Translations under genes and position numbers: made by a program
Origin: Magnetococcales bacterium WMHbin3
GTDB taxonomy: Bacteria > Pseudomonadota > Magnetococcia > Magnetococcales > Magnetaquicoccaceae
NCBI GenBank assembly: GCA_002753185.1
Contig: PDZX01000007.1
Location: forward strand, 1 to 64,000
Direction of reading: 5' to 3'
DNA: 64,000 bases
Part shown: positions 1 through 32,897 of the stretch, piece after piece
Numbering within the stretch: the stretch's first letter is position 1
Layout of the letters: every line of letters begins with the position of its first letter
Notes under the pieces: generated by a model
Seen by the model: the letters and a program-made list of their open reading frames with translations, nothing else
Told to the model about the DNA's origin: nothing
The model's database searches: none

Positions 1-1211
1 ACACCGACCTGCGAGGTGGTCAGCGCCCCGGTTTCGGTGGCGGTCAGCCCGCCGATTTGCGTTGTGGTCAGGACCGCAACGTTGGTGGTGGTGACCGCGC
101 CCAACTGGCTGGTGGTGAGGAAACCCACCTCGGTGGTGGTCAGCCCGCCGACTTGCGTGGTGGTGAGGACGCTGACCTGCGAAGTGGACAGCATACCGAC
201 CTGCGAGGTGGACAGCGCCCCGGTTTCGGTTGCGGTCAGCCCGTCGATTTGCGTGGTGGTCAACACGGCGACGTTGGTGGTGGTGACCGCGCTCAATTGC
301 GTGGTGGTAAGAAAACCCACCTCGGTGGTGGTCAGCCCGCCGACTTGCGTGGTGGTGAGAACTTCGACCTGCGAAGTGGTGAGAACACCGACCTGCGAGG
401 TGGACAGGGCGCCGGTTTCGGTGGCGGTCAATCCACCGACCTGGGTGGTGGTCAAGGCCGCGACGTTGGTGGTGGTGACCGCGCCGAGTTGGGTGGTGGT
501 GAGGAACCCCACCTCCGTGGTGGTCAGACCGCTTACATGCGTGGTGGTGAGGACATTGACCTGCGAGGTGGAGAACACCCCCAGTTGCGAGGTGGTCAGC
601 GCCCCGGTTTCGGTTGCGGTCAGCCCGCCGATTTGCGTGGTGGTCAACACGGCGACGTTGGTGGTGGTGACCGCGCCCAGCTGGCTGGTGGTGAGGAAAC
701 CCACCTCGGTGGTGGTCAGACCGCCGACTTGCGTGGTGGTGAGAACTTCGACCTGCGAAGTGGTGAGAACACCAACCTGCGAGGTGGACAGGGCACCGGT
801 TTCGGTGGCGGTCAGCCCGCCGATTTGCGTGGTGGTCAGTACGGCCACGTTGGTGGTGGTGACCGCGCCCAGTTGCGTGGTGGTGAGGAACCCTACCTCG
901 GTGATGGTCAGCCCGCCAATCTGGGTGGTGTCGAGGACACTGACCTGCGAAGTGGCGAGAACACCGACCTGCGAGGTGGTCAGCGCCCCGGTTTCGGTGG
1001 CGGTCAGCCCGCCGATTTGCGTTGTGGTCAGGACCGCAACGTTGGTGGTGGTGACCGCGCCCAATTGCGTGGTGGTAAGAAAACCCACCTCGGTGGTGGT
1101 CAGCCCGCCGACTTGCGTGGTGGTGAGAACTTCGACCTGCGAAGTGGTGAGAACACCAACCTGCGAGGTGGACAGGGCGCCGGTTTCGGTGGCAGTCAAC
1201 CCCCCGATTTG
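1..1211 (-). CDS. 3-prime part of giant octapeptide-repeat protein (after second amber codon), partial
   Basis: This is the same reading frame as the two upstream repeat segments. It starts directly after the TAG at 1212-1214 and stays open to the left window edge. It encodes tandem 8-residue units such as ALTTTQIG and GLTTTEVG, with no cysteine and no recognisable catalytic motif. The units group into 64-residue super-repeats that are nearly identical at DNA level. No convincing start codon with a ribosome-binding site follows the stop. The segment is therefore translated only if the amber codon is read through or is a sequence error; otherwise it is a pseudogene remnant. Function is unknown. 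The family resembles large Thr-rich repeat proteins of possible surface location, which is inference. Confidence 0.6.
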
Positions 1212-1470
1212 CTATGTGGTCAAGGCCGCGACATTGGTGGTGGTGACCGCGCCCAATTGCGTGGTGGTGAGGAAACCTACCTCGGTGGTGGTCAGTCCGC
1301 CGACTTGCGTGGTGGTGAGGACATCGACCTGCGAAGTGGTGAGAACACCGACCTGCGAGGTGGACAGGGCGCCGGTCTCGGTGGCGGTCAGCCCCCCGAT
1401 CTGGGTGGTGGTCAACGCCACGACGTTGGTGGTGGTGACCGCGCCCAGTTGTGTGGTGGTCAGCGCCTCC
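1..1470 (-). repeat. 192-bp higher-order repeat (8 octapeptides, 64 aa)
   Basis: The plus-strand motif ccggtttcggt recurs with its gttt at 31, 223, 415, 607, 799, 991, 1183 and 1375, always 192 bp apart. Copies are highly similar: bases 1-111 are repeated almost unchanged at 961-1071. This implies recent amplification or homogenisation. The array continues beyond the left edge. Confidence 0.9.
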
Positions 1471-4400
1471 ACCTGGATCGTCGTCACCCCGCGCAACTGG
1501 GTGGTGGTCAAGATCCCCACCTCGGTGGTGGTCACGCCCCCGATCTGCGTGGTGGTGAAAACGTTGACCTGAGAACTGGTGAGCACGCCAAATTGCGAGG
1601 TGGTCAACGCCCCCACCTCCGTGGTGGTCAATCCCCCGATCTGGGTGGTGGTCAACGCGGCGATATTGGTGGTGGTGACCGCACCCAATTGCGTCGTGGC
1701 AAGAAAACCCACCTCGGTGGTGGTCAGACCCCCGATCTGAGTGGTGACGAGCACATTGACCTGCGACGTGGTGAGAACACCTAACTGCGAGGTGGCCAGC
1801 GTCCCGGCACCCGTCGAGGTCAACCCGCCAATCTGGGTGGTGGTCAATGCCGCCACGTTGGTGGTGGTCACCACTCCCAACTGGGTGGTGGAAAGCGTGG
1901 CGACCTGCGTTGTCGTCACCCCGCTCAACTGGGTGGTGGTGAGTATCGATGCCTCGGTGGTGGTAAGCCCCCCCACCTGGCCGACGGTCAGCACGTTGAC
2001 CTGAGAACTGGAAAGAACTCCGAACTGCGAGGTGGACAACGTCCCAACCCCGGTGGTGGTGAGACCCCCCATCTGCGTGGTGGTCAGCGCCGCCACGTTG
2101 GTGGTGGTCACCGCCCCCAACTGCGTGGTGGCAAGCACCGCCACCTGCGTCGTCCTCACCCCACTCAACTGCGTGGTGGTGAGGATTTCAATCTCCGTCG
2201 TGGTGAGTCCCCCAATCTGCGTGGTGGTAAATATATTGATTTGTGTGCTGGCGATCACATCGAACTGCGAGGTGGTCAGTGCGCCAACTTCCGTGGTGGT
2301 AAGCCCCCCGATCTGCGTGGTGGTCAGCGCCGCCACGTTGGTGGTGGTCACCACCTCCAACTGCGTGGTGGCCAGCGCGGATACCTGCGTCGAAGTCACC
2401 CCGCGCAACTGGGTGGTGGTGAGTATCGACGCCTCAGTGGTGGTGAGTCCCACCACCTGGCCGACGGTCAGTACGTTGATCTGAGAACTGGAGAGAATAC
2501 CGAACTGCGAGGTGGTCAGCGCGCCGACTTCCGTGGTGGTCAGGCCCCCCATCTGCGTGGTGGTCAGCGCCACCACATTGGTGGTGGTCACCGCCCCCAA
2601 CTGCGTGGTGGCCAGCACGGCCACCTGCGTCGTGGTCACCCCACGCAACTGCGTGGTGGACAAACAGGCCACTTCCGTGGTGGTCAGACCGCCTACCTGC
2701 GTGGTATCGAAAATGTTGATCTGCACGCTGGACAAAATTCCGAACTGCGTGGTGGCAAACGCTTCGATCAGGGTGGTGGTCAATCCGCCGACCTGGGTGG
2801 TGCTCAAGTAGGCTACCTGGGTGGTGTGTACGCCGGTCAACTGCGTTGTGGCCAGCGCCCCGATCTGTGTCGTGGTCAGAGCCTGGACCTGCGTCATCTT
2901 GAGCGACCCGATCTGAGTCGTGGCCAACACCCCCTCCTGGGTGGTGCTCAACGCCGCGATCTCCGTGCTGGTCAAACCGCCGATCTGCGTGGTGGTCAGC
3001 ACCGTCACATGGGTCGTGGTCAGCGCGCCCACCTGCGTGGTGGTCAGCGCCCCCACCTGCGACGCTTTCAGCCCCAGCAACTGCGTCGTGCTCAGATAAT
3101 CCACCTCCACCGTGGTCAGGGCGCTGGTCAGGGTCGTGTTGAGCGAACCCAACTGCGTGGTGGTCATTACCCCAAGCTGCGTCGTGGCCAGGCTCCCGAT
3201 GCCGGTGGTCGTCAGGCCGCCCACCAGTGTCGAGGTCAGGGCGTTCACCTGGGTCGTGGTCAACGTCACCACATGCGTCGTTTCCAGGACCGCCATGTGG
3301 GTCGTCTTCAGACCGTTCAACTGGGTCGTGGTCAGAGATACCAGTTCCGTGGTGGTCAGGACGTTGGCGTGGGTCGTGAGCAGTGATCCCATCTGGGTCC
3401 AACTCAAGCCGCTCACCTGGGTGGTGCTCAGGGCCACGATCTCGGTGGTGGTCAGTCCGCCGATCATCGTGGCGGTAAAGGCGGCGATCTGCGTCGTGAC
3501 GAAAATCCCCAATTGGGTCGTGGTGAGCGCCCCGACATCGGTCTGGTTCATCGCAGCGACCTGAGTCGTGCTCAGGACGCTCAGTTGCGTGGTGGTCATC
3601 GCGCCGATTTGCGTGGTGGTCAACGCCCCGATGTGTACCTGCTTGAGAGCGCCAACCTGCGTCGTGTTCAGCACCTCGACCTGCGTCACGCTCAGGCTCC
3701 CCTCCTGGGTGATGGTCAACACCCCCAAGTGGGTCGTGGTGATCGCACCTACCTGCGCGGTGGAGAGAACCTCAACCTCCGTGGTGGTCAGCCCGCCAAT
3801 CACGGTGGTGGTCAGCCCGCCCACCTGACTGGTGGTGAGCGCCGACACCTGCGTGGTGCTCAGCACGCCGACCTGAGTCGCTTTCAGGCCGCTCAACTGG
3901 GAGGTGGTCAGGACCGTCACCTCCGTGGTGGTCAGCGTGTTGGTCTGGGTCGAATTCAACACACCGATCTGGGTGGAGGTCAACCCGCTCACCTGCGTCG
4001 TGCTCAACCAAACCAACCCGGTGGTGGTCAGACCGCCTACCTGAACGGCACTCAGGAATCCGATCTGGGTCGTGGAGAGAATCCCCTCCTGCGTCGTGGA
4101 CAACGCCCCGACCTCCGTGCTGGTCAAACCGGTGATCTGGGTCGTCGTCAGCACGCCCAACTGGGTCGTGGCCAGCACGTCGATCTGGGTGGTGGTCAAT
4201 CCGCCCACGTGGCTCGCTTTCAATCCGCTGATCTGCGTCGTGGACAGAACCGTCACCGAGGTCGTGGTCAGATCCTTTTCTTGCGTCGTGGTCAGCGTGC
4301 CGATTTGTGTCGTGGTCAGCACGCCCACCTGGGAAGTGGAGAGAATCGCCACCTCCGTGGTGGTCAGGCCGGTCACCCCGGTCACCGTCAGACTGCCCAT

Positions 4401-5216
4401 CTGGGTGGTGGTCAGGGCTTCGGTCAGCGTGGTTCCCAGCGCCGCCACCTGCGCCGATTTGATCCCGCTCAACTGCCCGGTCGTCAGCGCAACCACCTCC
4501 GTGGTGGTCAGAATGGCGATCTGGCTCGTGGTCAACACCCCCAACTGCGCGGAGGTCAAGCCGCTCAACTGGGTCGTGGTCAGGTTGACCACCTCCGTGG
4601 TGGTGATGCCCCAGAGCTGCGGCGTGCTCAACGTGACGATCTGGGTGGTGGTCAACGCGGCGGCCTGGGTCGTGGAGAGCGCCCCCATCTCCGTGCTGGT
4701 CAGGCCGGCGACCTGGCTGGTGGTCAGCGTCCCGATGTGCGTGCTGGTCAGACTGTTCAGTTGCGTCGTGGTGATCGCCGCCAATTGGGTCGATTTTACC
4801 CCGGAAAGCTGCGTGGTGGTCAGCACGGCGAGATCCGACGTCACCAGCGCCTTGACCTGGAGCGTGGACAACGTCCCCAATTGCGTGGTGCTCGTCACGC
4901 CGAATTGAGAGGTGCTCAGGATCTCGATGCCGCTCGTCGTCAATCCCGACACCACGGTCGTGGTGAGACCCGCCACCTGGGTCGTGGCCAGCGCCGCCAC
5001 CAGCGTGGTGGAGAGCGCGGCGGACTGGGTCGATTTCACCCCGGAAAGCTGCGAGGTGGAGAGCACCTGCACCTCGGTAGTGGTCAGCGCCCCTGCCTGC
5101 GTCGTGCTCAGATAGCCGATTTGCGTCGAGGTCAGTCCCTCAACCTGGGTGGTGCTCAGATTGGCCACCTCCGTGGTGGTCATGCCGCCCACCTGCGCCG
5201 CAGTCAGGGGCGCCAA
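1212..5216 (-). CDS. Middle part of giant octapeptide-repeat protein, between two amber codons
   Basis: A 1334-codon open frame in exact register with the segments on both sides. It is built from octapeptides with Leu/Val at position 2, Ser/Thr at positions 3-5, Gln/Glu at 6 and a small residue at 8. The only initiation codon close to the upstream TAG (5220-5222) is a TTG at 5216, two codons after it, and I see no Shine-Dalgarno sequence, so independent translation is doubtful. The right part shows a 192-residue super-period (576 bp), which shortens to an 80-residue period (240 bp) at about 1740-2700. The simplest reading is one giant gene interrupted by stops. Readthrough, pseudogenisation and assembly error all remain possible. 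Function unknown. Confidence 0.6.
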   Translation of the reverse strand: MAPLTAAQVGGMTTTEVANLSTTQVEGLTSTQIGYLSTTQAGALTTTEVQVLSTSQLSGVKSTQSAALSTTLVAALATTQVAGLTTTVVSGLTTSGIEILSTSQFGVTSTTQLGTLSTLQVKALVTSDLAVLTTTQLSGVKSTQLAAITTTQLNSLTSTHIGTLTTSQVAGLTSTEMGALSTTQAAALTTTQIVTLSTPQLWGITTTEVVNLTTTQLSGLTSAQLGVLTTSQIAILTTTEVVALTTGQLSGIKSAQVAALGTTLTEALTTTQMGSLTVTGVTGLTTTEVAILSTSQVGVLTTTQIGTLTTTQEKDLTTTSVTVLSTTQISGLKASHVGGLTTTQIDVLATTQLGVLTTTQITGLTSTEVGALSTTQEGILSTTQIGFLSAVQVGGLTTTGLVWLSTTQVSGLTSTQIGVLNSTQTNTLTTTEVTVLTTSQLSGLKATQVGVLSTTQVSALTTSQVGGLTTTVIGGLTTTEVEVLSTAQVGAITTTHLGVLTITQEGSLSVTQVEVLNTTQVGALKQVHIGALTTTQIGAMTTTQLSVLSTTQVAAMNQTDVGALTTTQLGIFVTTQIAAFTATMIGGLTTTEIVALSTTQVSGLSWTQMGSLLTTHANVLTTTELVSLTTTQLNGLKTTHMAVLETTHVVTLTTTQVNALTSTLVGGLTTTGIGSLATTQLGVMTTTQLGSLNTTLTSALTTVEVDYLSTTQLLGLKASQVGALTTTQVGALTTTHVTVLTTTQIGGLTSTEIAALSTTQEGVLATTQIGSLKMTQVQALTTTQIGALATTQLTGVHTTQVAYLSTTQVGGLTTTLIEAFATTQFGILSSVQINIFDTTQVGGLTTTEVACLSTTQLRGVTTTQVAVLATTQLGAVTTTNVVALTTTQMGGLTTTEVGALTTSQFGILSSSQINVLTVGQVVGLTTTEASILTTTQLRGVTSTQVSALATTQLEVVTTTNVAALTTTQIGGLTTTEVGALTTSQFDVIASTQINIFTTTQIGGLTTTEIEILTTTQLSGVRTTQVAVLATTQLGAVTTTNVAALTTTQMGGLTTTGVGTLSTSQFGVLSSSQVNVLTVGQVGGLTTTEASILTTTQLSGVTTTQVATLSTTQLGVVTTTNVAALTTTQIGGLTSTGAGTLATSQLGVLTTSQVNVLVTTQIGGLTTTEVGFLATTQLGAVTTTNIAALTTTQIGGLTTTEVGALTTSQFGVLTSSQVNVFTTTQIGGVTTTEVGILTTTQLRGVTTIQVEALTTTQLGAVTTTNVVALTTTQIGGLTATETGALSTSQVGVLTTSQVDVLTTTQVGGLTTTEVGFLTTTQLGAVTTTNVAALTT
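1740..2700 (-). repeat. 240-bp higher-order repeat (10 octapeptides, 80 aa)
   Basis: The plus-strand motif cgccacgttggtggtggtca ends its first half at 1860, 2100 and 2340, and in a variant form at 2580, a period of 240 bp. The units around it, including the one encoding VTTTNVAA, follow the same order in each copy. This block lies between the 576-bp zone and the 192-bp zone. Confidence 0.8.
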
Positions 5217-8200
5217 CTGCTATGTGGAGAACACGAGAACCTGGGTCGTGGTCAACGCCCCCATCTCCGTGCTGGTCAGGCCGGTGATCTGGGTGGTGGT
5301 CAAGATCCCCAGATGCGTGGTGGTCAGCACCCCCAACTGCGTGGTGGTCAGCCCGCCCACCTGGGTCACCTTCACCCCGGAAATCTGCGTGGTGGTCAGA
5401 ACCGCCAGCACGGTCGTGGTCAGACTGCGCTCCTGCACGGTGGAGAGGGTCCCCACATGGGTCGTGGTCAGCATCCCCACTTGCGTGGTGTTCAAAATGT
5501 CGATGCTGGTGGTGGTCAGCCCGGAAACCGCAGTGGTGGTGAAACCCCCTACCTGCGTCGTGACGAGGGCGGCGATCTGCGTGGTGACCAGCGCCGCCAC
5601 CTGGGTGGCGCGTATCCCGATTAACTGCGTGGTGGAGAGGGTTTGCACCTCCGTGGTGGTCAGAGCGGCCACCTGGGAGGAGTTCAACGATCCCACCTGG
5701 GTCGAACTTATGCCTCCCACCTGGGTCGTGGTCAGCGCGACGACCTCCGTGGTGGTCAGTCCGCTCACCTGGGTCGCGGTCAAATAAACCACCTGCGAGG
5801 TGTTCAGAACGACCACCTGCGTGGTGGTCAGCGCCCCCATCTCCGTGCTGGTCAGACCGGCGATCTGCGTGGTGGTCAGGACACTCAGGTGCGAGGTGGT
5901 CAGGGCGCCCACCTGCGTGGTGGTCAGCGCGCCGACCTGGGTCGATTTCACCCCGGCGATCTGCGAGGTGGTCAAAAACGCCAGCCCGGTGGTGGTGAAG
6001 CCCTTCTCCTGCGTCGTGGAGAACGTCCCCAGATGGGTCGTGGTCAGCATCCCCACTTGCGTGGTGTTCAATATCGCGATACCGGTGGTGGTCAGCCCGG
6101 AAACCGCCGTGGTGGTCAGACCCCCCACCTGCGTGGTGACCAGGGCGGCCACCTGCGTGGTGACCATCGCCCCCATCTGGGTGGCGCGCACCCCGCGCAA
6201 CTGCGTGGTGGAGAGGGTTCGCACCTCCGAGGTGGTCAGAGCGGCCACCTGGGAGACGTTCCACCACCCCACCTGGGTCGAACTCATGCCTCCCACCTGG
6301 GTCGTGGTCAGGCTGGCCACCTCCGTGGTGGTCAGGCCGCTCACCTGGACCGCGCTCAAATAGGCCACCTGCGACGTGGAGAAAATGACCATCTGCGTGG
6401 TGGTCAGCCCCCCCGTCTCCGTGCTGGTCAGACCGGCGATCTGCGAGGTGGTCAGGACGCTCAGGTGCGAGGTGGTCAGGGCGACCAACTGCGTGGTGGT
6501 CAGCGCGCCGACCTGGGTCGCTTTTACCCCGGAGATCTGCGTGGTGGTCAAAAAAGCCAGCCCGGTGGTGGTCAGCCCTTTCTCCTGCGTCGTGGAGAAG
6601 GTCCCCAAATGGGTCGTGGTCAGTGAGCCGACCTGGGTGGTGGTCAGGTAGGTGATCGCCGTGGTGGTCAGGCCGGAGACCACCGTCGTGGTCAGCCCAC
6701 CCACCTGGCGCGTGGAAAGAATCGCGATCTGGGTGGTATTCACCACCGCCATCTGCGTGGATTTCAAACCGCTCAACTGGGTGGTGGTCAGAACCGCCAG
6801 TTCCGTGGTGGTCAGGTTCGCGGTCTGGGTGGTGTTCAGCATGCCCAGTTGGGACGATCTCAAGCCCCCTGTCTGGGTGGTGCTCAGGGCCACCAGTTCC
6901 GTGGTGGTCAGGCCCCCGATCTGGACAGCGGTGAGGACCGCCAATTGCGAGGTGTCCAGGATGGAGATCTGGGTGGTGGTCAGGGATCCCACCTCCGTGC
7001 TGGTCAGGCCGCCGATCTGGGTGGTGGTCACGCCGTCGATCTGGGTGGTGGTCAGGGCCATCATCTGCGTGGTCGCCAGCGCGCCCAGGTGCGACGACTT
7101 CAACCCGCTCAACTGGGTGGTGGTCAGGGAAGTGATCGAAGTGGTCGTCAGGCTTTTGCCCTGCACCGTGCTCAGGCCGCTCAACTGCGTGGTGCTCAAC
7201 ACGGACGACTGCGAGGTGGAAAGAATCGCGATCTCCGAGGTGGTCAGCCCCCCGATCTGCGCCAGGCTCAGCCAGGCTACCTGCGCAGTGGTCAAACTCC
7301 CGGCCTGCGTCGTGGAAAGCACCCCGACGTGCGTGGCCTTCAGCCCCGCCAACTGGGTCGTGGCAAGGCTCACCAGTTCCGTGGTGGTCAGGATGGAGGA
7401 TTGGGTCGTGGTCAAGACCCCCAGATGGGTCGAGGTCAGCCCATCCAGCTGTGTGGTGGTCAGATTGATCAGTTCGGTGGTGGTCAGCCCGCCCACCTGC
7501 GCCGCGCTCAGGGTCGCCAACTGCGACGTGTTCAGCACCGTGACCTGCGTCGTGGTCAACCTGCCCATCGCCGTGCTGGTCAGGCCGCCAATCTGCGTGG
7601 TGGTCAGGGAGCCGAGGTGCGTGGTGGTCAGAACGCCGATCTGGGTGGTGCTCAGACCCCCCACCTGGGTCGATTTCACACCCGTCAACTGCGTGGTGGT
7701 CAAGGCGTTGACCACCGTGACGGTCAACCCCTTCTCCTGAGTCGTGGAGAGGGTCCCCAACTGGGTCGTGGTCAGGGATCCGGCCTGAGTGGTGGTCAGA
7801 ATGGCGATGCCGGTGGTGGTCAGTCCGGAGACCACCGTCGTGGTCAGGCCGCCCACCTGGGTGGTGCGCAACGCCGCCACCTGCGTGGTGCTCATGACCG
7901 ACATCTGTGCGGCCCGCAGCCCGGCCAACTGCGAGGTGGTCAGGGAGGTCAGCTCCGTGGTGGTCAGGGCGCCGGTCTGGGTGGCGTTCAGCGTCCCCAC
8001 CTGGGTCGTGGTCAAAGCTCCCGCCTGGGTCGTGGTCAGGCCGACCAACTCCGTGGTGGTCAGACCCGATACCTGGTTCGCGCTCAATGCAACGATCTTC
8101 GTGGTGGACAGAATGCCCACCTGGGTCGTGGACAACGCCCCCGTCTCGGTGCTGGTCAGCCCCGCGAACTGGGTGGTGGTCAGCGTATTGACATGGGTGG

Positions 8201-10704
8201 TGGTCAGGGCGCCGAGTTGCGTGGTGGTCAGGGCGCCGAACTGCGTCGCCTTCAGGGTGCTCGATTGGGTGGTGGTCAGGAAGGCGATCGCGGTGGTGGT
8301 CAGGCCCTTCATTTGGGTGGCGGTCAGCGCCCCGATCTGCGCCGTGGAGAGGCTGCCTGCCTGCGTGGTGCTCAGGATCGCCAGCGCGGTGGTGGTCAGA
8401 CCCCCGGATTGCACCACGTTGAGATGGTTCAACTGGGTCGTGTTCAGACTGCCGATCCGGGTGGTGTCCAGCGCCGTGATATGGGTGGACTTCAGGCCGC
8501 TCAACTGTGTCGTGGTCAGGACCGTCAGCTCCGTGGTGGTCAGGCCGCCGAACTGGGTCGTGGTCAAACCGCCGAGCAGCGTCGAGGTCAGGCTGCCCAC
8601 CTGGGTGGTGGCCAGGCCGACCATCTGCGTGGTGGTCAGCCCGCCAGCCTGCGTCACGGTGAGCACCGCCACCTGGGTCGTCGCCAAACCGAGCAGCTGC
8701 GTCGTGGAGAGCGCACCCGCTTCCGTGCGGGTCAGACCGCCGATCTGGGTGGTGGAGAGGGCACCAAGGTGGGTGGTGGAGAGGGCGCCCAGTTGCGTGG
8801 TGCTCAGCGCCCCGACCTGACTCGGTTTCACCCCGGCCAGTTGCGTGGTGGTCAGGGTGGACACCCCCGTGGTGGTCAGGTTGCTGGCCTGCACGGTGGT
8901 CAGCGTTCCCAACTGGGTCGTGGTCAACGCCCCGATCCGCGTCGTGGTCAGGATCGCAATCCCGGTGGTGGTCAGTCCGGAGACCGCCGTGGTGGTCAGA
9001 CCCCCGATCTGGGTCGTGGTCAGCGCGTTCACCAGCGTGGTGCTCAACACCCCTGCCTGGGTCGAACGTACTCCCGCCAACTGCGTGGTGGTCAGGGAGG
9101 AAAGTTCCGTGGTGGTCAGAATGGCGATCTGCGAGGTGTTCAACACCCCCACCTGCGTCGCGCTCACCCCGCCCAACTGGGTGGTGCTCAGAGTGGCCAC
9201 CTCCGTGGTGGTCAGGCCACTCAGCTGGGCCACGCTCAACATCCCCACCTGCGTGCTGTTCCAGATCGCAAGCTGCGTGGTGGACAACGCGCCGGTCTGG
9301 GTGCTGGTCATGCCTCCGATCTGGGTGGTGGTCAGATCGCCCAACTGCGTGGTGGACAGGGCGCCCAACTGCGTGGTGGTCAGCCCCCCCGTCTGGGTCG
9401 CCTTCACGCCGGTGAACTGGGTGGTGGTCAGAACCGTCATCGCGGTGGTGGACAGGGCGCGTGCCTGGGTGGTGCTCAGCACCCCCATTTGCGAGGTGGT
9501 CAGGAAACCGGTCTGCGTGGTGGTCAGGAGGCCGATCTGGCTGGTGCTCAGGCCGGACGCCGCAGTGGTGGTCAGCCCGGCCACCTGGGTCGTGGCCAGC
9601 GTTCCCGTCAGCATGGTCCCCAGGGCAGCCGTCTGGGTGGCCTTGAGGCCGCTCAACTGGGTGGTGGCGAGGACCTGCGCCTGCGTGGTGTTCAGGGCGG
9701 CGATCTGGGTGGTGGTCAACATCCCCAACTGCCCGGAGGTCAGCCCCGCCACCTGAGTGGTGGCGAGGCTGTTCACGCCGGTGGTGGTCAGGCCAGCCAC
9801 CTGGAGCGCGTTGAGTACCGCAAGCTGCGTCGTGGCGAGGATCGCGATCTGGGTCGTGGTGAGCGCCCGCGTTTGGGTGCTGCTCCATCCGGCGATTTGC
9901 GTGGTGGCCAGGGCGCCGATCTGCGTGGTGGTCAGGGCGGTCTGCTGCGTGGTGGTCAACGCCCCGATCTGGCTCGATTTCGCGCTGGCGAGTTGCGTGG
10001 TGGTCAGGATCGCCACCTGGGTGGTGGTCAGGGCGCCTTCCTGCCGCGTGGAGAGGGTCGCCACCTGGGTGGTGGACAGGATGCTCACTTGGGTGGTGTT
10101 CAGATTGCCGATGGCCGTGGTGGTCAGGCCACTGGTCACGGTCGTGGTCATGCCGCCCAGTTGGGTGGTGGTCAGGCCAGCCACCTCCGTGGTGGTCAGG
10201 GCGCCCCACTGCGTCGAGGAGAGCGCGGCGATCTGCGTGGTGGTGACCTGGCCCAGTTGGGTTGTGTTCAGGGCGGCGATCCCCGTGGTCGTGATGCCCT
10301 TGGCCTGGGTCGTGCTCAGGGATGCGATTGCCGTGGTGGTCAGGGCTTGCCACAGGGTGGCGTTCAACTGACCGACATGGGTCGATTGCAGCCCGCTCAT
10401 CTGGGTGGTGGTCAACGCCGTGAGCGCCGTGGTGGTCAGGCTGCCCATGTGGGTCGTGGCCAGACGCGTGATCTGGGTGGTGCTCAAGGTGGCCAACTGG
10501 GAGGTCGAAAGCGCCGTCAGCCCGGTAGTGCTCAGGGATGCGACCAGGTTGGAACTCAGCGCGCCCAGTTGGGTGGTGCTCAGGTTGGCAAACTGCGTGG
10601 TGTTCAGAACCGCGCTCCAGGAGGTCTTGATGCCGGCGAGCTGGGTGCTGCTCAACGCATCGACCATGGAGGTGGAGAGTTGACCGATCTGCGTGGTGGA
10701 CAAC
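3217..10704 (-). repeat. 576-bp higher-order repeat (24 octapeptides, 192 aa)
   Basis: A diagnostic motif (plus strand ccggaaaccgccgtggtggt and close variants) sits at 3217, 3793, 4369, 4945, 5521, 6097, 6673, 7825, 8977, 9553 and 10129. All spacings are 576 bp or 1152 bp. Other landmarks, such as the rare Lys-containing unit (SGVKSTQ type) and the NTTQ unit, recur once per period. Copies are diverged, so this is the older amplification layer. Confidence 0.85.
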
Positions 10705-11042
10705 CCCCCGACGCTGGTGGATTGCAGGCCGCCGATCTGGGTCGTGGTGAGCGTCGCGATCAGGGTTGTGGCGAGCGCCTTGGCCTGGGTGGAGGTGACC
10801 GCGTTCATCTGGGTGGTGGTCAGGGTCCCCAGTTGGGTGGTGGTCAGGGTGCCCAGTTGGACGGTGGTCAGGCCAGGCACCTGGGAGGTCTTGAGATAGC
10901 CGAACTGCGTGGTGGTGAGGGCGGAGAACTGCGTGGTGGTGAAGTAGCCGATTTCCGATGCCGAAAGGAGGGCCAGCGTGGAACTCGACAGGCTGGCCAC
11001 CTGGCCGGGTGTCAGCATTTGGATCATTGTCGATGTGGGCAT
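5220..11042 (-). CDS. Giant Thr-rich octapeptide-repeat protein, N-terminal part (1940 aa to first amber codon)
   Basis: It starts at ATG 11042, preceded by GGAGAG about eight bases upstream, and begins MPTSTMIQMLTPGQ. There is no signal peptide or membrane segment. After about 35 residues nearly the whole chain consists of 8-residue units such as TLTTTQLG. Units vary mostly by conservative changes. Gln and Thr codons vary at third positions (CAG/CAA, ACC/ACG), which would be non-synonymous in the overlapping open frame rich in Asp, His and Arg, so this frame is the selected one. A 192-residue super-period repeats about twelve times. The ORF ends at a TAG inside a Thr-Thr-stop-Gln unit, and the frame continues beyond it. 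Function unknown; a secreted or surface-exposed giant protein is inference. A TPR glycosyltransferase gene lies upstream on the same strand. Confidence 0.75.
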   Translation of the reverse strand: MPTSTMIQMLTPGQVASLSSSTLALLSASEIGYFTTTQFSALTTTQFGYLKTSQVPGLTTVQLGTLTTTQLGTLTTTQMNAVTSTQAKALATTLIATLTTTQIGGLQSTSVGGLSTTQIGQLSTSMVDALSSTQLAGIKTSWSAVLNTTQFANLSTTQLGALSSNLVASLSTTGLTALSTSQLATLSTTQITRLATTHMGSLTTTALTALTTTQMSGLQSTHVGQLNATLWQALTTTAIASLSTTQAKGITTTGIAALNTTQLGQVTTTQIAALSSTQWGALTTTEVAGLTTTQLGGMTTTVTSGLTTTAIGNLNTTQVSILSTTQVATLSTRQEGALTTTQVAILTTTQLASAKSSQIGALTTTQQTALTTTQIGALATTQIAGWSSTQTRALTTTQIAILATTQLAVLNALQVAGLTTTGVNSLATTQVAGLTSGQLGMLTTTQIAALNTTQAQVLATTQLSGLKATQTAALGTMLTGTLATTQVAGLTTTAASGLSTSQIGLLTTTQTGFLTTSQMGVLSTTQARALSTTAMTVLTTTQFTGVKATQTGGLTTTQLGALSTTQLGDLTTTQIGGMTSTQTGALSTTQLAIWNSTQVGMLSVAQLSGLTTTEVATLSTTQLGGVSATQVGVLNTSQIAILTTTELSSLTTTQLAGVRSTQAGVLSTTLVNALTTTQIGGLTTTAVSGLTTTGIAILTTTRIGALTTTQLGTLTTVQASNLTTTGVSTLTTTQLAGVKPSQVGALSTTQLGALSTTHLGALSTTQIGGLTRTEAGALSTTQLLGLATTQVAVLTVTQAGGLTTTQMVGLATTQVGSLTSTLLGGLTTTQFGGLTTTELTVLTTTQLSGLKSTHITALDTTRIGSLNTTQLNHLNVVQSGGLTTTALAILSTTQAGSLSTAQIGALTATQMKGLTTTAIAFLTTTQSSTLKATQFGALTTTQLGALTTTHVNTLTTTQFAGLTSTETGALSTTQVGILSTTKIVALSANQVSGLTTTELVGLTTTQAGALTTTQVGTLNATQTGALTTTELTSLTTSQLAGLRAAQMSVMSTTQVAALRTTQVGGLTTTVVSGLTTTGIAILTTTQAGSLTTTQLGTLSTTQEKGLTVTVVNALTTTQLTGVKSTQVGGLSTTQIGVLTTTHLGSLTTTQIGGLTSTAMGRLTTTQVTVLNTSQLATLSAAQVGGLTTTELINLTTTQLDGLTSTHLGVLTTTQSSILTTTELVSLATTQLAGLKATHVGVLSTTQAGSLTTAQVAWLSLAQIGGLTTSEIAILSTSQSSVLSTTQLSGLSTVQGKSLTTTSITSLTTTQLSGLKSSHLGALATTQMMALTTTQIDGVTTTQIGGLTSTEVGSLTTTQISILDTSQLAVLTAVQIGGLTTTELVALSTTQTGGLRSSQLGMLNTTQTANLTTTELAVLTTTQLSGLKSTQMAVVNTTQIAILSTRQVGGLTTTVVSGLTTTAITYLTTTQVGSLTTTHLGTFSTTQEKGLTTTGLAFLTTTQISGVKATQVGALTTTQLVALTTSHLSVLTTSQIAGLTSTETGGLTTTQMVIFSTSQVAYLSAVQVSGLTTTEVASLTTTQVGGMSSTQVGWWNVSQVAALTTSEVRTLSTTQLRGVRATQMGAMVTTQVAALVTTQVGGLTTTAVSGLTTTGIAILNTTQVGMLTTTHLGTFSTTQEKGFTTTGLAFLTTSQIAGVKSTQVGALTTTQVGALTTSHLSVLTTTQIAGLTSTEMGALTTTQVVVLNTSQVVYLTATQVSGLTTTEVVALTTTQVGGISSTQVGSLNSSQVAALTTTEVQTLSTTQLIGIRATQVAALVTTQIAALVTTQVGGFTTTAVSGLTTTSIDILNTTQVGMLTTTHVGTLSTVQERSLTTTVLAVLTTTQISGVKVTQVGGLTTTQLGVLTTTHLGILTTTQITGLTSTEMGALTTTQVLVFST

Positions 11043-11544
11043 GTCTCGCTCTCCGCCTTGGGACGATGCATCTCAAGCAATTCTAGTGGAATTCGGACTC
11101 GGGGCGAATCCGACGCGATTGGCGGGGGGGTGCGGTTGTGCGGATGGCGAAAGCCGGAGCCGCATCCTCGAAGTCGAAGCGAGGAGATGGGCATTACGGG
11201 TTTTCCACGCATCCGTCGCCCGCGCCTTTGATTGCCACCGGGTCCTGATCGTTATCGTTTTGCCCAGAGGATTTTTCATGAATGTCTTCCGCGCAGCACC
11301 GGTCATGGTCTGCCGGCCTGTCCGGCTTGGTTTCGAAAAAAGTATATCAGTAGAGGCCAAGAGGCAATCTTTTTTTTAGCGCAAGTTAACCGGAAGGGCA
11401 AAAGGCGGGAAGGAAAAACCGTCTGGACAGGCGTGGCATTGGGGGTGTCTGCGTTGGAAGATGCGTTTATAATCGGAATGTTGGTTTCGATGTGGGGCGT
11501 ATTTCGTCAGGAGAAGGGGCGGATTTCCGATGCGGATGGCTTAC
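11043..11544. other. Leader/intergenic region upstream of the giant repeat gene, no gene seen
   Basis: About 500 bp without a convincing coding sequence. Small ORFs here lack start signals and family resemblance. On the minus strand, TATACT (11346-11341) with TTGCCT 15 bases upstream of it (11367-11362) is a weak promoter candidate about 300 bp before the repeat gene start. The spacer is shorter than usual, so confidence is low. The Shine-Dalgarno GGAGAG lies near 11051-11056. Confidence 0.4.
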
Positions 11545-11655
11545 TTAATTCTACTTTATCACATTTCCCTACCCTGACAGGCGAGGGCAGTGGCCTGTTG
11601 TCTGGCACAGGCTGAGTGGATAGCGGCAGCCCGTCTTCGGAGTCGGTTTTCCATT
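11545..11655 (-). repeat. 111-bp inverted repeat, left copy
   Basis: Read on the minus strand this starts AATGGAAAACCGAC and ends AAAGTAGAATTAA. It matches the plus strand of 13999-14109 over its whole length at roughly 80-85 percent identity. Both copies point outward and enclose the IS3 fragment and the TPR glycosyltransferase gene. Both could encode a short peptide tail (MENR...AAAI...SACARQQ) ending in a stop at the same place, so the repeat may derive from the end of an unknown gene. No target-site duplication is visible. Confidence 0.75.
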
Positions 11656-11804
11656 GACACCTTCCGCACTCTCCTCCAATTGCTTGCGCCATGCATTGAC
11701 CATTAAACGGGCTGCCAGTGGCTCAGTCGTCTCTTCTCCCCTCATGGCTGCAAGAGCCATCTTGGCTTTGAAATTACTTGTATGCTGTTGCGTATCGTGC
11801 TCAT
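11656..11804 (-). pseudogene. IS3-type transposase OrfA fragment, frameshifted and truncated
   Basis: ATG 11804 is preceded by AAGGAGG, but its frame leaves the family pattern after eight codons. Shifting by one base gives FKAKMALAAMRGEETTEPLAA followed by a WRKQLEESAEG stretch. This is the helix-turn-helix start of IS3-family OrfA proteins (FKAKVALAALRGEKT...LAA...WKKQLLE). About five residues of the usual HPNQI segment are missing in the middle. The sequence then ends at the inverted-repeat boundary. OrfA is the DNA-binding half of the IS3 transposase; this copy cannot be functional. Confidence 0.6.
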
Positions 11805-11866
11805 GTCCACTCCTCCTTGTTGAAAATGGTGCAGAGTTTATCATATTGTTTGAAAATTGGGGTCCA
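11656..11866 (-). mobile_element. Remnant of an IS3-type insertion sequence (left end)
   Basis: On the minus strand the element appears to start with TGGACCCCAATTTT at 11866, directly after the TAA of the upstream TPR gene. About 60 bp of leader and the start of an OrfA-like frame follow. IS3-family elements usually begin with TG and carry orfA 50-80 bp from the end, which fits. The match stops at the 111-bp repeat. No OrfB and no right end were found, so this is a truncated remnant. Confidence 0.55.
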
Positions 11867-13783
11867 TTATACAACCAAAGTCCTCTGGTGCATCGTGTTG
11901 GCCAACGCTGCCGCGACTTCGGCGATCACGGCGGACCAATCCCCTGGCGTGGCTTGCCGAAAAAGGCGCATGACGCCGGGATACCAGGGGGAATCGTCGC
12001 GTCCGTGCAACCACCGCCAATCGAGACCCAGGGCGGGAAGCAACACCCAACACGGTTTGCCCAGAGACCCGGCCAGATGCACCACGGCGGTATCCACGGC
12101 GATCACAAGATCCAGGCGCGCCACCACGGCGGCGCTATCCGCGAAATCCCCCATCAGCGCGCCCAGATGAAGCAGGGGCTGTCCCTGCGGGGGGACCATG
12201 GCCTCCTCTTCTCCGGCCCCCTTTTGCAGACTGAAGAACGACACCCCCAGCACGGACCATAAAGGGGCCAGAACCGCCAAACCGGGCAAGGAACGGTTGC
12301 CGTCGTTGTGGTGGGTTGGCCTGCCCTTCCACACCAGACCAACCTTGAATCCCTGTGGGGGGAGGTGTGGGGTCGGCAGTTCGAGACGCTCCCGTGGCGG
12401 GGCCAGGTAGGGCAGCGTCGCGGGAAGGGTCTCCAGGGTGGTTCCCAGGCAGAGGGGAATGGAGAGAATGAAGGTCCAATAGTCGTGACGGTCAAACGTT
12501 ACCCCCGCATCCGTCGCCATGAGTCGGTCCACCCCCGCCAGGGAGCGGAACAATGCCTCCAGGGGAGGGGTGCAGACCAGGGTGATGGTCGCCGCGCCCA
12601 TGGCCTTCAGTTGAGCGACAAAACGACAAAACTGTATTTTGTCTCCAAATCCCTGTTCGGGAAGGATCAACAGGGATTTGCCCGTCAACGGCTCTCCCCG
12701 CCATTGCAGAATCTCCTTCCCGACGGGATTCTCCCGTTGGCCGTGAATTTGATGACGGGCTTCGTACAACGGCCAGCCCTCCGTGAGACGTCCCAGGGAC
12801 AGCAAAAGCAACCCCAGATTCATCCGGCAGTCGAGATGGTCCGGCTTGAGGTTCAAGGTCTGCTGGAAGGCCTCCTCTGCTTTCGCGTACCGCCCCAGGG
12901 TCTGCATGAGGCTTCCCAGATTGTACCAGGCCTCGACGTGATCCGGTTGCAGGCGCAGGGCCTGCCGGTAGGCGGCCTCGGCCTCGTCGTAGCGCAGCCG
13001 ATCCACCAGCAGGTTGCCCAGATTGTTGTGGATGTGGGCCTCGTCAGGGGTGATCACCAGGGCGCGTCGGTAGGTGGCCTCGGCCTCATCGAAACGGAGC
13101 TGTCTTTTGAGCAGAACCCCCAGATTCGCATGGGCCTCCAGATAGTCCGGCCAGAGGGTGATCGCCTGCCGATAGGCGGCCTCGGCTTCCGCATCGCGGC
13201 CCTGTTCGTTGAGCAGGTTGCCAAGATTGTTAAAGGTTTCCGCGTGGGTCGGGTGAAAATCCAGCGTACGCCGAAACACCGCTTCCGCCTCGGCATTATG
13301 GTGCATCGCCGCCAGCAGAAAACCAAGGTTGGTAAGGGAGTCGAGGTGGTCCGGCTTGAAGCGCAGGGAGTGCCTGAAGGCATCCGCCGCCTCCGCATGG
13401 CGCTGCTGCCGGTTCCGCAGCACCCCCGTGGCAAAGGCCAGATTGAATGCAGGCTCCAACGCCCGTGGGGCCAACTCCACCGCGTTTTGGAAGGCTTTGA
13501 TGGCCTGTTCCGGCTGCATCATCCGTTGGTAGGTCACGCCGATGTTGACGTGGATTTCATAATCGTCCGGGGCCAGGACGGCGGCCTGCTCGTAAGCACG
13601 CAGGGCATGCGCGTCATTCCCCTGGCGGCGAAACACGTTACCCAGGTTGTAATAGGCCGGCATGTAGGCGGGATCTGCCTGAATCGCCTTTAGGTACAGG
13701 GTCTTGGCCAACTCCAGGTCTCCCCGCCCCATGGCGAGGTTCCCCATGTTCTTCAGGGAAGTCGCCGATTCGTCTCCGTTCAC
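11867..13783 (-). CDS. TPR-repeat protein with C-terminal glycosyltransferase-like domain
   Basis: 638 aa. Residues about 5-345 are roughly ten tetratricopeptide repeats, with the pattern NLGNLL...GR..EAEAAYRQAL..P recurring every 34 residues. Residues about 360-620 follow the pattern seen in TPR-linked glycosyltransferases: WRGEPLTGKSLLILPEQGFG, then VGLVWKGRPTHHND, then DLVIAVDTAVVHLAGSLGKP. Proteins of this build act in the cytoplasm and are thought to transfer sugars to proteins or glycans; the substrate cannot be read from sequence. The gene lies upstream of, and on the same strand as, the Thr-rich giant repeat gene, which makes O-glycosylation of that product a testable idea. Its stop codon touches the start of the IS3 remnant, so the last residues may have been changed by the insertion. 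Confidence 0.85.
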   Translation of the reverse strand: MNGDESATSLKNMGNLAMGRGDLELAKTLYLKAIQADPAYMPAYYNLGNVFRRQGNDAHALRAYEQAAVLAPDDYEIHVNIGVTYQRMMQPEQAIKAFQNAVELAPRALEPAFNLAFATGVLRNRQQRHAEAADAFRHSLRFKPDHLDSLTNLGFLLAAMHHNAEAEAVFRRTLDFHPTHAETFNNLGNLLNEQGRDAEAEAAYRQAITLWPDYLEAHANLGVLLKRQLRFDEAEATYRRALVITPDEAHIHNNLGNLLVDRLRYDEAEAAYRQALRLQPDHVEAWYNLGSLMQTLGRYAKAEEAFQQTLNLKPDHLDCRMNLGLLLLSLGRLTEGWPLYEARHQIHGQRENPVGKEILQWRGEPLTGKSLLILPEQGFGDKIQFCRFVAQLKAMGAATITLVCTPPLEALFRSLAGVDRLMATDAGVTFDRHDYWTFILSIPLCLGTTLETLPATLPYLAPPRERLELPTPHLPPQGFKVGLVWKGRPTHHNDGNRSLPGLAVLAPLWSVLGVSFFSLQKGAGEEEAMVPPQGQPLLHLGALMGDFADSAAVVARLDLVIAVDTAVVHLAGSLGKPCWVLLPALGLDWRWLHGRDDSPWYPGVMRLFRQATPGDWSAVIAEVAAALANTMHQRTLVV

Positions 13784-24314: not shown

Positions 24315-28448
<4,134 letters not shown>

Positions 28449-28494
28449 TGCTGGAAAAAAATGCATTTTTCCCCATTTTGTGCATTATTATGAA

Positions 28495-28524
28495 TTGACA
28501 AACAGGGGCGGATGCGGTTAGGAT
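28495..28524 (+). promoter_or_regulatory. Sigma-70 promoter for the rpsL (str) operon
   Basis: TTGACA (28495-28500), an 18-base spacer and TAGGAT (28519-28524) lie 126 bp before rpsL. Upstream at 28453-28472 a weak AT-rich hairpin may mark partial termination after rpoC. A fresh promoter here would separate rpoBC from rpsL-rpsG-fusA-tuf. Confidence 0.75.
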
Positions 28525-28649
28525 AGTGGGCTTAGGTGGTTGGACGGAAGTCGCGGTGGTGGGAGTAAAAAAAGTTCTGAAACTCCTTTACCTGGCCGCA
28601 AAAAAGGGCTAGAATCTTCGGATGAATGGTTTGTTGGAGTGAGATCGTA

Positions 28650-29021
28650 ATGCCGACAGTGAATCAACTTGTTCGTTTCGGACGTAAGACGGTCAAGAAA
28701 AAGACCAACGTCCCAGCTATGCAAGCCTGCCCTCAAAAACGGGGGATTTGCACTCGCGTTTACACGACGACGCCAAAAAAGCCGAACTCGGCGCTGCGCA
28801 AAGTTGCTCGCGTTCGTTTGACGAACGGCCATGAAGTGACGGTGTACATTCCGGGTGAAAGCCACAATCTGCAAGAACACGCTGCTGTGCTGGTGCGCGG
28901 CGGGCGTGTGAAGGACCTTCCGGGCGTGCGGTACCACATCATCCGTGGCACGCTGGATACTCAGGGGGTCAAGAATCGCAAGCAAGGTCGTTCCAAGTAT
29001 GGCGCCAAACGGCCCAAATAA
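28650..29021 (+). CDS. rpsL: 30S ribosomal protein S12
   Basis: 123 aa protein of the decoding centre. The loop [12 protein letters not shown] (about residues 39-50) carries lysine at the position tied to streptomycin resistance, so the sensitive form is present. KDLPGVRYH holds the aspartate that is often methylthiolated. ATG 28650 is the family start (MPTVNQLVR); an ATG at 28626 would add eight foreign residues. The sequence GESHNLQEH has Ser where most proteins have Gly. Confidence 0.98.
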
Positions 29022-29059
29022 GGAACTGGTCCATTTATTCGCAGGCAGGAGCAGTAGGG

Positions 29060-29530
29060 ATGTCCAGAAGGCGCGACGTTCAACAAAGGGAAGTAATCGG
29101 CGATCCGGTTTACGGGGATCTGCTGGTAGCCAAGTTCATGAACTGTCTGATGAAGGATGGCAAGAAAGCCCTGGCCGAGCGTCTCTTCTACGGCGCCCTG
29201 GACACGGTTGGCGAGCGCACCAAGGATGATCCTCTCAAGATCTTCAAGGAAGCCATCGACAACGTGCGGCCCACTGTTGAGGTTCGCTCCCGTCGTGTGG
29301 GTGGTGCTACTTATCAGGTTCCGGTAGAGGTGCGTCCCAGCCGTCGTCAGACTCTGGCGATCCGTTGGCTGATCAAGTACGCCCGTGACCGTGGCGAAAA
29401 AACCATGCGTGAGCGCCTGGCGGCAGAGTTGATGGATGCTGCTAATGGTCGTGGCACCACGGTCAAGAAAAAGGACGATACCCACCGCATGGCCGAGGCC
29501 AACAAGGTCTTCGCTCATTATCGGTGGTAA
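29060..29530 (+). CDS. rpsG: 30S ribosomal protein S7
   Basis: 156 aa primary binder of the 16S rRNA 3-prime domain, contacting E-site tRNA. Family start [20 protein letters not shown] and the conserved [11 protein letters not shown] segment at about residues 81-91 are present. It is 38 bp after rpsL and 33 bp before fusA in the str operon. S7 represses this operon in E. coli; no matching site was identified here. Confidence 0.98.
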
Positions 29531-29563
29531 GAGATACGGAACGATTCGGACAGGTGAAGTCAA

Positions 29564-31645
29564 GTGTCTAGAGATATACCAATCTCGCGAGTGCGCAACA
29601 TCGGCATTATGGCGCATATCGATGCCGGTAAGACCACGGTGACCGAGCGCATCCTGTACTACACTGGGCGTTCGCACAAGCTCGGCGAAGTGCATGAAGG
29701 CACTGCCACCATGGACTGGATGGAGCAGGAGCAGGAGCGTGGCATCACGATCACTTCGGCGGCCACCACCTGTTTTTGGTCGGATCATCGGATCAATATC
29801 ATCGACACCCCCGGTCACGTGGACTTCACCATTGAGGTGGAGCGATCCCTGAGGGTGCTGGATGGCGCGGTGGCGGTTTTCTGCTCGGTGGGTGGTGTAC
29901 AGCCCCAGTCGGAAACGGTTTGGAAGCAGGCCGACCGCTATGGAGTGCCGCGCATCGCCTTCGTAAACAAGATGGATCGCATGGGTGCCGATTTTCCCCG
30001 TGTCCTGACCATGATCAAGGATCGGTTGCGCGCCAAGGCCGTGCCGATCCAGTGGCCCATCGGCTCGGAAGAGACCTTCCGGGGTATGGTGGACCTGGTG
30101 AGCCGCAAGGCCTATATGTTCGACGACGAGTCCCTGGGCGCCCGTTTCGACGTGTGCGAAGTGCCGGACTCGATGCTGGACAAGGTCAACGAGTTGCGCG
30201 AGTTCATGCTGGAGACCGCGCTTGAGCAGGACGACGCCCTGATGGAGCGTTATCTTGAGGGTGGGGCGATCACCGAGGCGGAATTGCGCTCCTGTATTCG
30301 CAAAGGTGTCCTTACCAACTCTTTTGTGCCGGTGATGTGCGGTTCGGCCTTCAAGAACAAGGGGGTGCAAGCCTTGTTGGATGCGGTGGTGGCCTACTTC
30401 CCCTCGCCGGATGATATTTCGTCCGTGCAAGGGATCAAGGCCATGGACGACCCCACCCCGGACAGCCGGGAAGCCAAGGATACCACGCCGTTCTCGGCAT
30501 TGGCCTTTAAGATCATGTCCGACCCCTTTGTGGGTTCGTTGACCTTCTTCCGGGTTTATTCCGGGGTGTTGACCTCAGGGTCTTATGTGCTGAATCCGGG
30601 CAAGGACAAGAAGGAACGGATCGGGCGCATCATGCTGATGCATGCCAACAAGCGCGAGGACGTCAAGGAAGTACGCACCGGCGATATCGCCGCAGCGGTT
30701 GGACTCAAGAGCACCACCACAGGCGATACCCTGTGCGATCCGGCCAAGCCGATCGTCCTGGAAAAGATGACCTTTCCGGAACCGGTGATCTCCATCGCCA
30801 TTGAGCCGAAGACCAAGGCCGACCAGGAGAAGATGGGTCTGGCCCTGGGACGTCTGGCGCAGGAGGATCCGTCCTTCCGCGTGGCGGTGGACCCGGAGAC
30901 CAATCAGACCATCATTTCCGGCATGGGGGAACTCCATCTGGAGATCCTGGTGGACCGGATGATGCGCGAGTTCAAGGTGGAGGCCAACGTGGGCAAGCCC
31001 CAGGTGGCCTATCGCGAGACGATCACCAAGAAGGTGGAGTCGGAAGGGAAGTTTGTGCGGCAGTCGGGTGGTCGTGGTCAGTTCGGCCATGTCTGGTTGC
31101 GCATCGAGCCGCGTGAGCCGGGCATGGGTTTCGAGTTCCTCGACGAGATCAAGGGTGGCATTGTACCGCGTGAGTATATCTCCGCTGTGGGCAAGGGCGC
31201 GGAAGAGGCCCTGCAGAGCGGGGTAGTGGCGGGATTCCCCATGGTGGATGTGTCGGTGGCCCTGTACGACGGCTCTTATCATGATGTGGACTCCTCGGAA
31301 ATGGCCTTCAAGATCGCTGCGTCCATGTCGATCAAGGCCGGTTGCGCCAAGGCGGCCCCGGTGCTTCTGGAGCCGATCATGGAGGTGGAGGTTGAGGTTT
31401 CGGAAGCCTTCATGGGGGATATCATCGGCGATTTGAACTCGCGGCGCGGTACGATCTACGGGATGGATGCCGCAGCTGGCAATCAGATCGTCAAGGCCAT
31501 GACCCCGCTGGCGAATATGTTCGGATACGCGACCGATCTGCGGTCCATGACCCAGGGTCGCGCGACGTTTACCATGCAGTTTCATCATTACGAACCGGTG
31601 CCAAAGAGTGTCGCCGACGAGATTGTGGCGAAGGTCAAGGGCTAA
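29564..31645 (+). CDS. fusA: Elongation factor G
   Basis: 693 aa translocase GTPase. The P-loop AHIDAGKTT is at about residues 17-25, switch [10 protein letters not shown] at about 82-89 and NKMDR at about 136. Domains II-V are complete. The start is GTG 29564 ([15 protein letters not shown]), consistent with family length. It lies between rpsG and the second tuf gene, the standard str operon position. Confidence 0.98.
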
Positions 31646-31657
31646 GGGGAACGAGCT

Positions 31658-32848
31658 ATGTCGAAGGCGAAATTTCAAAGAAACAAGCCCCACGTCAATA
31701 TCGGCACGATCGGGCATGTGGACCATGGCAAAACGACTCTGACGGCGGCCATCACCAAGATTTTGGCTACCCGTGGTCTGGCGGAGTTCAAGGCATACGA
31801 TCAGATCGATGCGGCCCCTGAGGAACGGGCACGTGGCATCACCATCTCCACCGCTCATGTGGAGTATGAGACCGATCAGCGCCATTATGCCCATGTGGAC
31901 TGCCCTGGTCACGCCGACTACATCAAGAACATGATCACCGGCGCGGCGCAGATGGACGGCGCCATCCTGGTGGTCTCGGCGGCTGACGGCCCCATGCCGC
32001 AGACCCGTGAGCACATTCTGCTCGCCCGTCAGGTGGGCGTGCCCTCCCTGGTGGTCTTCATGAACAAGGCCGACCAGGTGGATGACCCGGAACTGTTGGA
32101 ACTGGTCGAACTGGAAGTGCGCGAGCTGCTCTCCATGTACGACTTCCCCGGCGACGAGATCCCGATCGTGGTGGGGTCGGCCCTCAAGGCCATGGAAGGA
32201 GATACCGGCCCAATGGGCGCCGGAGCGATCCAGAAGCTTATGGACGCGGTGGATGCCTACATCCCGCAGCCGGAGCGGCCGTTGGACGGTGCCTTCCTGA
32301 TGCCTATCGAGGATGTCTTCACCATCTCCGGGCGCGGTACGGTGGTCACCGGACGTGTAGAGCGCGGTGTCGTCCGCGTCGGCGAGAACGTGTCTATCGT
32401 TGGCATCAAGGCTACGACGAATTCGGTCTGCACCGGGGTGGAAATGTTTCGGAAACTCTTGGATCAGGGCCAGGCCGGTGATAATATCGGGGTTCTCCTG
32501 AGAGGGGTGAAGCGTGAGGATGTGCAGCGCGGCCAGGTGTTGGCCAAACCCAACTCCATCACCCCGCACACCAGGTTCAAGGCGGAGTGCTATATTCTTT
32601 CGAAGGAAGAAGGTGGGCGCCATACGGCGTTCTTCTCCAACTATCGTCCGCAGTTTTATTTTCGTACCACGGATGTCACCGGGGTGCTGAAGCTGCCGGA
32701 AGGGGTGGAGATGGTGATGCCGGGGGATAACATATCCATGGACGTGGAATTGATCGCCCCAATCGCCATGGAAAAGGGTTTGCGGTTCGCCATCCGGGAA
32801 GGTGGGCGGACTGTGGGTGCCGGCGTCGTATCGGAAATCACGTTGTGA
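31658..32848 (+). CDS. tuf: Elongation factor Tu, copy 2
   Basis: 396 aa, with the same GTPase motifs as the first copy. Protein differences are few, for example Gln for His after ETD near residue 75, and the C-terminal VVSEITL instead of VVAEVMA. At DNA level the middle of the two genes is almost identical while both ends carry many silent differences, a sign of gene conversion. It is the last gene of the str operon, 49 bp before rpsJ. Confidence 0.98.
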
Positions 32849-32897
32849 CGATGGCCTGTGGACGGGCAGCGTTTGGAAGGCGTTGGGTGAACTGGTA

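Follow-up and report, generated by a model that had tools for sequence, protein, structure and literature searches.

The window analyzed here, a stretch of 64,000 nucleotides, is the start of a contig from a 4.6-Mb genome in 157 contigs. Its first 11 kb are occupied by one minus-strand gene built of octapeptide units (octads) with the consensus L-T-T-T-Q-V/L/I-G/A-G/A, in which Thr accounts for 29% and Ser for 8% of residues (Table 1). The initial annotation had described an octad coding unit filling this region in one frame, in line with a residue identity in translation that averages 0.445 whenever the lag is a multiple of 8 and 0.103 otherwise. It had given no strand. Coding proceeds on the minus strand from an ATG at 11042, after which the octads continue in a single register down to base 1, where the array reaches the contig edge; its 3′ end, therefore, lies outside the sequence. 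The frame is not wholly open, being interrupted by two in-frame TAG codons. A plus-strand coding frame was rejected, as the plus frames carry 24, 104 and 4 stops. Over the array, the minus frames carry 2, 364 and 4 stops, and the one with two was taken as coding because of its start codon, its Pfam match and a dN/dS below 1; the few stops in two of the other frames were put down to composition. No N-terminal signal peptide was seen by eye, ALTTAQ proteins starting within the first octads.

Table 1 Features of the octad-repeat locus and its upstream neighbor (window coordinates).
Feature	Position	Strand	Remarks
ALTTAQ (PF20080) octad-repeat gene, ~460 units	1..11042	minus	5′ end at 11042, 3′ end beyond contig
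ORF of 1,940 aa, ATG to first in-frame TAG	5220..11042	minus	
First in-frame TAG	5220-5222	minus	Stop absent from near-identical public contig L077
Second in-frame TAG	1212-1214	minus	Beyond reach of L077
First 326 units, 24-unit super-period (192 aa, 576 bp)	3216..11039	minus	7 turns if one turn takes 3.43 units
10-unit super-period region (80 aa, 240 bp)	1594..2755	minus	
8-unit super-period region (64 aa, 192 bp)	1..1460	minus	Most homogeneous, without the 3.43-unit rhythm
TPR protein, upstream neighbor	11870..13783	minus	Weak, sub-cut-off match to glycosyltransferase family 9

Leaving aside the two TAGs, the frame stays open for 3,680 codons with no change of octad register. Both stops occupy the identical octad position within an identical short sequence context. 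The only near-identical public record, L077 (JADGCD010000114.1; 7,122 bases), is filed under the Nitrospinota MAG nWMHbin6; probably it is misbinned, or two bins share DNA of one organism. L077 corresponds to window positions 1338–8459, from which it differs in nothing but three neighboring bases at the first TAG. A copy of this stretch without the first stop, thus, exists, so that this stop reflects either variation between strains or faulty assembly; the pair of TAGs could likewise stem from strain variation or from a systematic error of assembly. An alternative is that the window gene is decaying, cut by stops and with its exporter lost. The two TAGs are compatible with decay, as is a search of the 93.1% complete window assembly that returned no close relative of the exporter found beside the arrays of its genus (the sole match at E 1e-80 is only 37% identical); on the 5′ side of the window array, no linked ABC or HlyD genes were present. 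We nonetheless regard decay as rather unlikely given the otherwise open frame, the lack of the first stop in L077 with identity over the rest of its length, and dN/dS values below 1 between copies inside the gene (0.56 in the N-part at lag 576; 0.23 in the C-part at lag 192).

Three super-periods had been proposed on top of the octad, and autocorrelation of the translated frame shows peaks at the corresponding 192, 80 and 64 residues. The top lag is 192 aa in the N-terminal 2,610 aa (identity 0.583), 80 aa in the middle 470 aa (0.654) and 64 aa in the last 600 aa (0.828). Tandem Repeats Finder, whose longest period is exceeded by 576 bp, recovered the 192-bp repeat at 1–1460 (86% matches) and the 240-bp repeat at 1594–2755 (74%). 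Compared to unit shuffles, the first 326 units yielded z = 24.6 at a lag of 24 units and z = 21.2 at 48 units. Lys or Arg occupies unit position 2 in 28 of these 326 units; relative to the 24-unit period, 12 of the 28 have phase 10 and another 12 have phase 20, with spacings mostly of 10 and 14 units. The 576-bp register, thus, holds, as originally described. Amplification in whole units, likewise suggested at the outset, is supported.

The earlier statement that the unit belongs to no named family does not stand. The octad is the ALTTAQ repeat of Pfam family PF20080, matched by the 1,940-aa frame at E 3.4e-192 (622 bits versus a cut-off of 26.4; 74 stretches); the octad consensus of this family equals the window unit, and nothing sets the latter apart. 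NCBIfam contained no match for the window protein, and the Pfam matches of the 1,940-aa frame, listed up to an E of 10, included no RTX family. Membership in the leucine-rich repeats was rejected, since only LRR_EndoS was matched, at E 0.81 and below its cut-off; leucine-rich units comprise 20–29 residues, whereas those of the window have 8 and are helical in our main structural model. The one clear sequence relative in the PDB is HeliScrew4 (9zem), which matched the window's 1,940-aa frame at E 8.5e-11 and a relative from the more distant group f34 at E 3.6e-17, and the printed stretch of which passes PF20080 (E 3.8e-35). HeliScrew4, by its name perhaps a designed protein, resembles the window protein in being a 120-residue chain of ALTTAQ octads but differs in having ~15 units, turns rich in Pro-Glu/Asp and fewer Thr residues. 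Other PDB sequence matches were weak and mostly to leucine-rich repeat chains (E 0.0006 to 0.95). No paper on ALTTAQ, PF20080 or HeliScrew was found in the open literature searched (titles and abstract starts).

For comparison to relatives, g1 denotes the window's genus, g1 and g2 are genera of its own family, and f24 and f34 are more distant kin. The PF20080 family was detected at E 0.001 in 16 of 61 genomes (the window's own and 60 relatives), all in g1 and g2. In a phylum sample, 19 of 398 genomes matched (E 1e-7), including four that do not belong to the window's family; array-positive genomes numbered 18 of 119 in f24 and 17 of 121 in f34. Stop-to-stop frames uncut by contig ends measure 2,942, 2,942, 2,236, 1,968 and 1,547 aa in g1, and open frames in kin reach 6,436 aa. 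The arrays of G010 and G005 can be aligned over their full 2,942 codons with no indel, at 82.7% identity and a dN/dS of 0.24, compared to 0.52 to 3.1 in the five other reading frames; between these two, the gene is under purifying selection. The 24-unit block proved not to be special to the window gene: a lag of 192 aa likewise ranks first in the arrays of G010, G005, G008, G001 and G003, shares the top rank with 384, 304 and 80 in G002, and is outside the top six in G007. A window-specific amplification of this block was rejected accordingly, its period being common to relatives.

For each of the eight genes examined first, Fourier analysis of residue indicators, counted by unit, placed the main peak at 0.29–0.295 (7/24) cycles per unit. 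The refined peak for the first 326 window units is 0.2917, equivalent to 3.428 units or 27.43 residues (half-power 0.2903–0.2932). Lys at unit position 2 and Ser/Ala at position 3 fall near one phase in seven g1 genes, with Gly at position 8 following 66–92 degrees later; in the g2 gene G014, position-2 Lys residues are too few for phase comparison. A survey sample comprised 47 array frames from 39 genomes (9 from g1, 10 from g2, 3 from named relatives, 2 from G371, 12 from f24 and 11 from f34), which are not independent of each other, some being two parts of a single gene. For each locus, the longest array frame was chosen and its longest run in constant register analyzed; frequencies above 0.485 (two-unit alternation, strong in several g2 frames) were left out, and no array frame was found in L094 and L095. 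In 33 of the 47 frames, the highest scanned peak lay within 0.285–0.300 per unit. When 100 unit shuffles were made per frame, the band peak was higher than every shuffle inside the band in 40 frames, and in 33 it surpassed the highest peak that the shuffles reached at any scanned frequency. Seven frames did not beat the shuffles in the band (L062, L064, L065, L070, L071, L073 (g2) and L093), although L065 and L070 have their top peak inside it. By our own arithmetic, the top frequencies of 0.41 and 0.115 in f34 frames would correspond to the second and third harmonics of 0.295 after aliasing.

Long lags vary by group, with 24 units in g1 and 408-bp (17-unit) match spacings in f34, both near whole multiples of 3.43. 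If one cycle is taken as one turn, the three block sizes of the window are unlike: the rhythm accommodates the blocks of 24 units (7 turns) and of 10 units (2.9 turns), while the 64-aa array is an exception, with 8 units amounting to 2.33 turns and a top frequency of 0.25 per unit. This array looks like a later amplification. The super-periods might instead be no more than what unequal crossing-over and gene conversion leave behind in a protein of low complexity, devoid of structural meaning, a possibility with which the C-terminal 64-aa copies agree, being the most uniform and lacking the common rhythm. We consider it improbable, as one frequency recurs across families despite their differing long lags, residue phases are common to g1 genes, and G010 and G005 retain their full length free of indels at a low dN/dS.

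The genomic neighborhood of the arrays differs among groups. In g1, an ABC exporter gene with a C39-like domain and an HlyD gene are located directly upstream of the array and on its strand. Besides the window's genome, seven g1 genomes had a fetched array, and six of these carry ABC and HlyD beside it. Profiles identified both genes in L057, L058, L059, L060, L067 and L069 and neither in L061 and L068; Pfam supported ABC and HlyD in L057 and L060 and HlyD also in L059 and L069. In G007, the exporter sits on a contig other than that of the array. The ABC–HlyD pair was absent from the fetched loci of f24, f34, g2, G371 and the named kin, with lone weaker ABC matches in L073, L093, L098, L130, L131 and L137.

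A second linkage concerns glycosyltransferases of family GT41. In g1, a divergent GT41 gene occurs within ~3 kb of the exporter in G001, G002, G003, G005, G007, G009 and G010 and at ~6.5 kb in G008. A TPR-GT41 gene is the next gene downstream of the array in all three named kin, Hyphomicrobium LHD-15, gamma HdN1 and Caulobacter 602-1. GT41 matches were furthermore present in 10 of 12 fetched loci of f24 and 7 of 11 of f34, as well as beside the G371 array, and Pfam agreed on GT41 in all seven cases checked, three of them from g1. Genome-wide, GT41 was detected in 15 of 16 array-positive versus 7 of 18 array-negative f24 genomes (Fisher p 0.0011) and in 12 of 17 versus 2 of 17 f34 genomes (p 0.0013), both values ignoring kinship. 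These counts cover 16 of the 18 array-positives in f24 and all 17 in f34, with 18 of 101 and 17 of 104 array-negatives, respectively, taken from 20 listed each and not random. Read from coordinates, GT41 lies within ~8.5 kb of a listed repeat match in all 15 f24 genomes and in 11 of the 12 from f34; one of 16 array-positive f24 genomes and five of 17 from f34 had no GT41 match. For the upstream neighbor of the window array, Pfam gave no GT41 match. The window genome (G000) contains 35 matches to PF13844 (GT41) and G001 contains 41, usually two per gene. Window positions 11043–13000 have 112 matches in their own genome (self included), mostly to the TPR part.

GT41 enzymes are nucleocytoplasmic in eukaryotes. 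This localization, together with the lack of a linked ABC–HlyD pair in f24, f34 and the named kin, would suit an intracellular scaffold, in which case the linked GT41 and exporter genes would serve other substrates. We judge such a role to be quite unlikely in view of the six g1 genomes that carry ABC and HlyD directly upstream on the array strand, with no other sizeable gene between exporter genes and array in L059, L060 and L069. That the window's own product is exported and glycosylated is suggested by analogy with its relatives.

To model the fold, AlphaFold2 was applied to window positions 7776–8639 (minus strand) with an alignment of 45 rows, which used 45 of 49 picked segments. The resulting model (mean pLDDT 93.9, pTM 0.80; five models from 93.9 to 45.2) contains 36 helices in 36 octads, each of 4–6 residues. 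The main region is, thus, predicted to form a helical screw with one short helix per octad, and the rhythm read from sequence suggests ~3.4 octads per physical turn. This helical model and the common rhythm across relatives lend support to the regular solenoid that had been surmised. A Foldseek comparison against the PDB (to April 2026) yielded no close fold: the best TM by query length was 0.39 among the best 50 rows, which did not include 9zem. The best rows were to mesothelin (E 5.6e-4), to which HeliScrew4 also has a sub-cut-off Pfam match (E 0.0043), but TM values of 0.24–0.44 indicate at most a loose likeness of short-helix superhelices.

By contrast to the main region, 48 units of the 64-aa array (window 48–1199) were modeled as all beta (pLDDT 83.8, pTM 0.62; five models from 83.8 to 51.9) using a 13-row alignment, with one strand of 237 residues. 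This model is probably an artifact, its unbroken strands, lower confidence and thinner alignment making it implausible. According to PMC11795689, AlphaFold2 tends to build confident but unrealistic beta-solenoids from perfect repeats, and the near-perfect repeat at 48–1199 is perhaps a natural example of this bias. That the ALTTAQ repeat as such is a beta-solenoid and the helical model artifactual, as the all-beta model would have it, is very improbable considering the flaws of that model, the reported bias, the confidently helical model of the main region and a solved family member that bears the name HeliScrew4.

From the pitch rule and the gene linkages, we conclude that the best reading of these data is a giant, type I-secreted, O-glycosylated ALTTAQ screw fibre, to which we assign a slightly better than even chance. 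Each octad would contribute one short alpha-helix and a Thr-rich turn, and successive octads would wind into a narrow screw, each turn of which takes up ~3.43 octads or 27.4 residues. Super-periods would then correspond to whole turns, 24 units making 7, 17 making 5, 14 making 4.1 and 10 making 2.9, and would keep Lys at position 2 and Ser/Ala at position 3 on one face. In g1, the protein would be exported through the adjoining type I exporter, consisting of the ABC protein with its C39-like domain and HlyD, and its Thr/Ser turns would be O-glycosylated by the TPR-GT41 enzyme whose gene adjoins the locus. The end product would be a long glycosylated surface or matrix fibre, possibly with an adhesive role.

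The repeat family was already known, while the pitch rule and the gene linkages are new. They lead us to a broader and more tentative proposal, which we hold at somewhat less than an even chance: ALTTAQ proteins may constitute one class of secreted fibres, giant and O-glycosylated, that form alpha-helical screws with a non-integer pitch of ~3.43 octads per turn and whose long repeats (10, 14, 17 and 24 units) were selected as whole turns that keep a glycan/Lys stripe on one face, many with a dedicated GT41 enzyme and those of the window's genus with a dedicated type I exporter. The pitch rule offers a reason for the super-period sizes and provides a testable mechanism for the repeat family that is directly checkable by structure. 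The ALTTAQ protein, moreover, is a candidate natural substrate of bacterial OGT-type (GT41) enzymes. If the proposal is true, these proteins would form regular helical fibres of great length that might find use as designable rods.

Giant type I-secreted adhesins include LapA, SiiE and MpAFP. ALTTAQ proteins resemble these adhesins in being giant and repetitive, in having adjoining ABC and HlyD genes (in g1 kin) and in lacking, by eye, an N-terminal signal peptide, but the adhesins contain repeats of ~100-residue Ig-like domains instead of octads. The serine-rich repeat glycoproteins of Gram-positives are Ser/Thr-rich repetitive surface proteins with their own glycosyltransferases and exporter, and differ from ALTTAQ proteins in repeat, exporter and enzymes. 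Lastly, contigs with ALTTAQ arrays also encode giant frames with several GT41 domain matches, at ~27095–35212 of G014:C92 (3,781 aa) and ~410–6250 of G015:C1 (2,506 aa).
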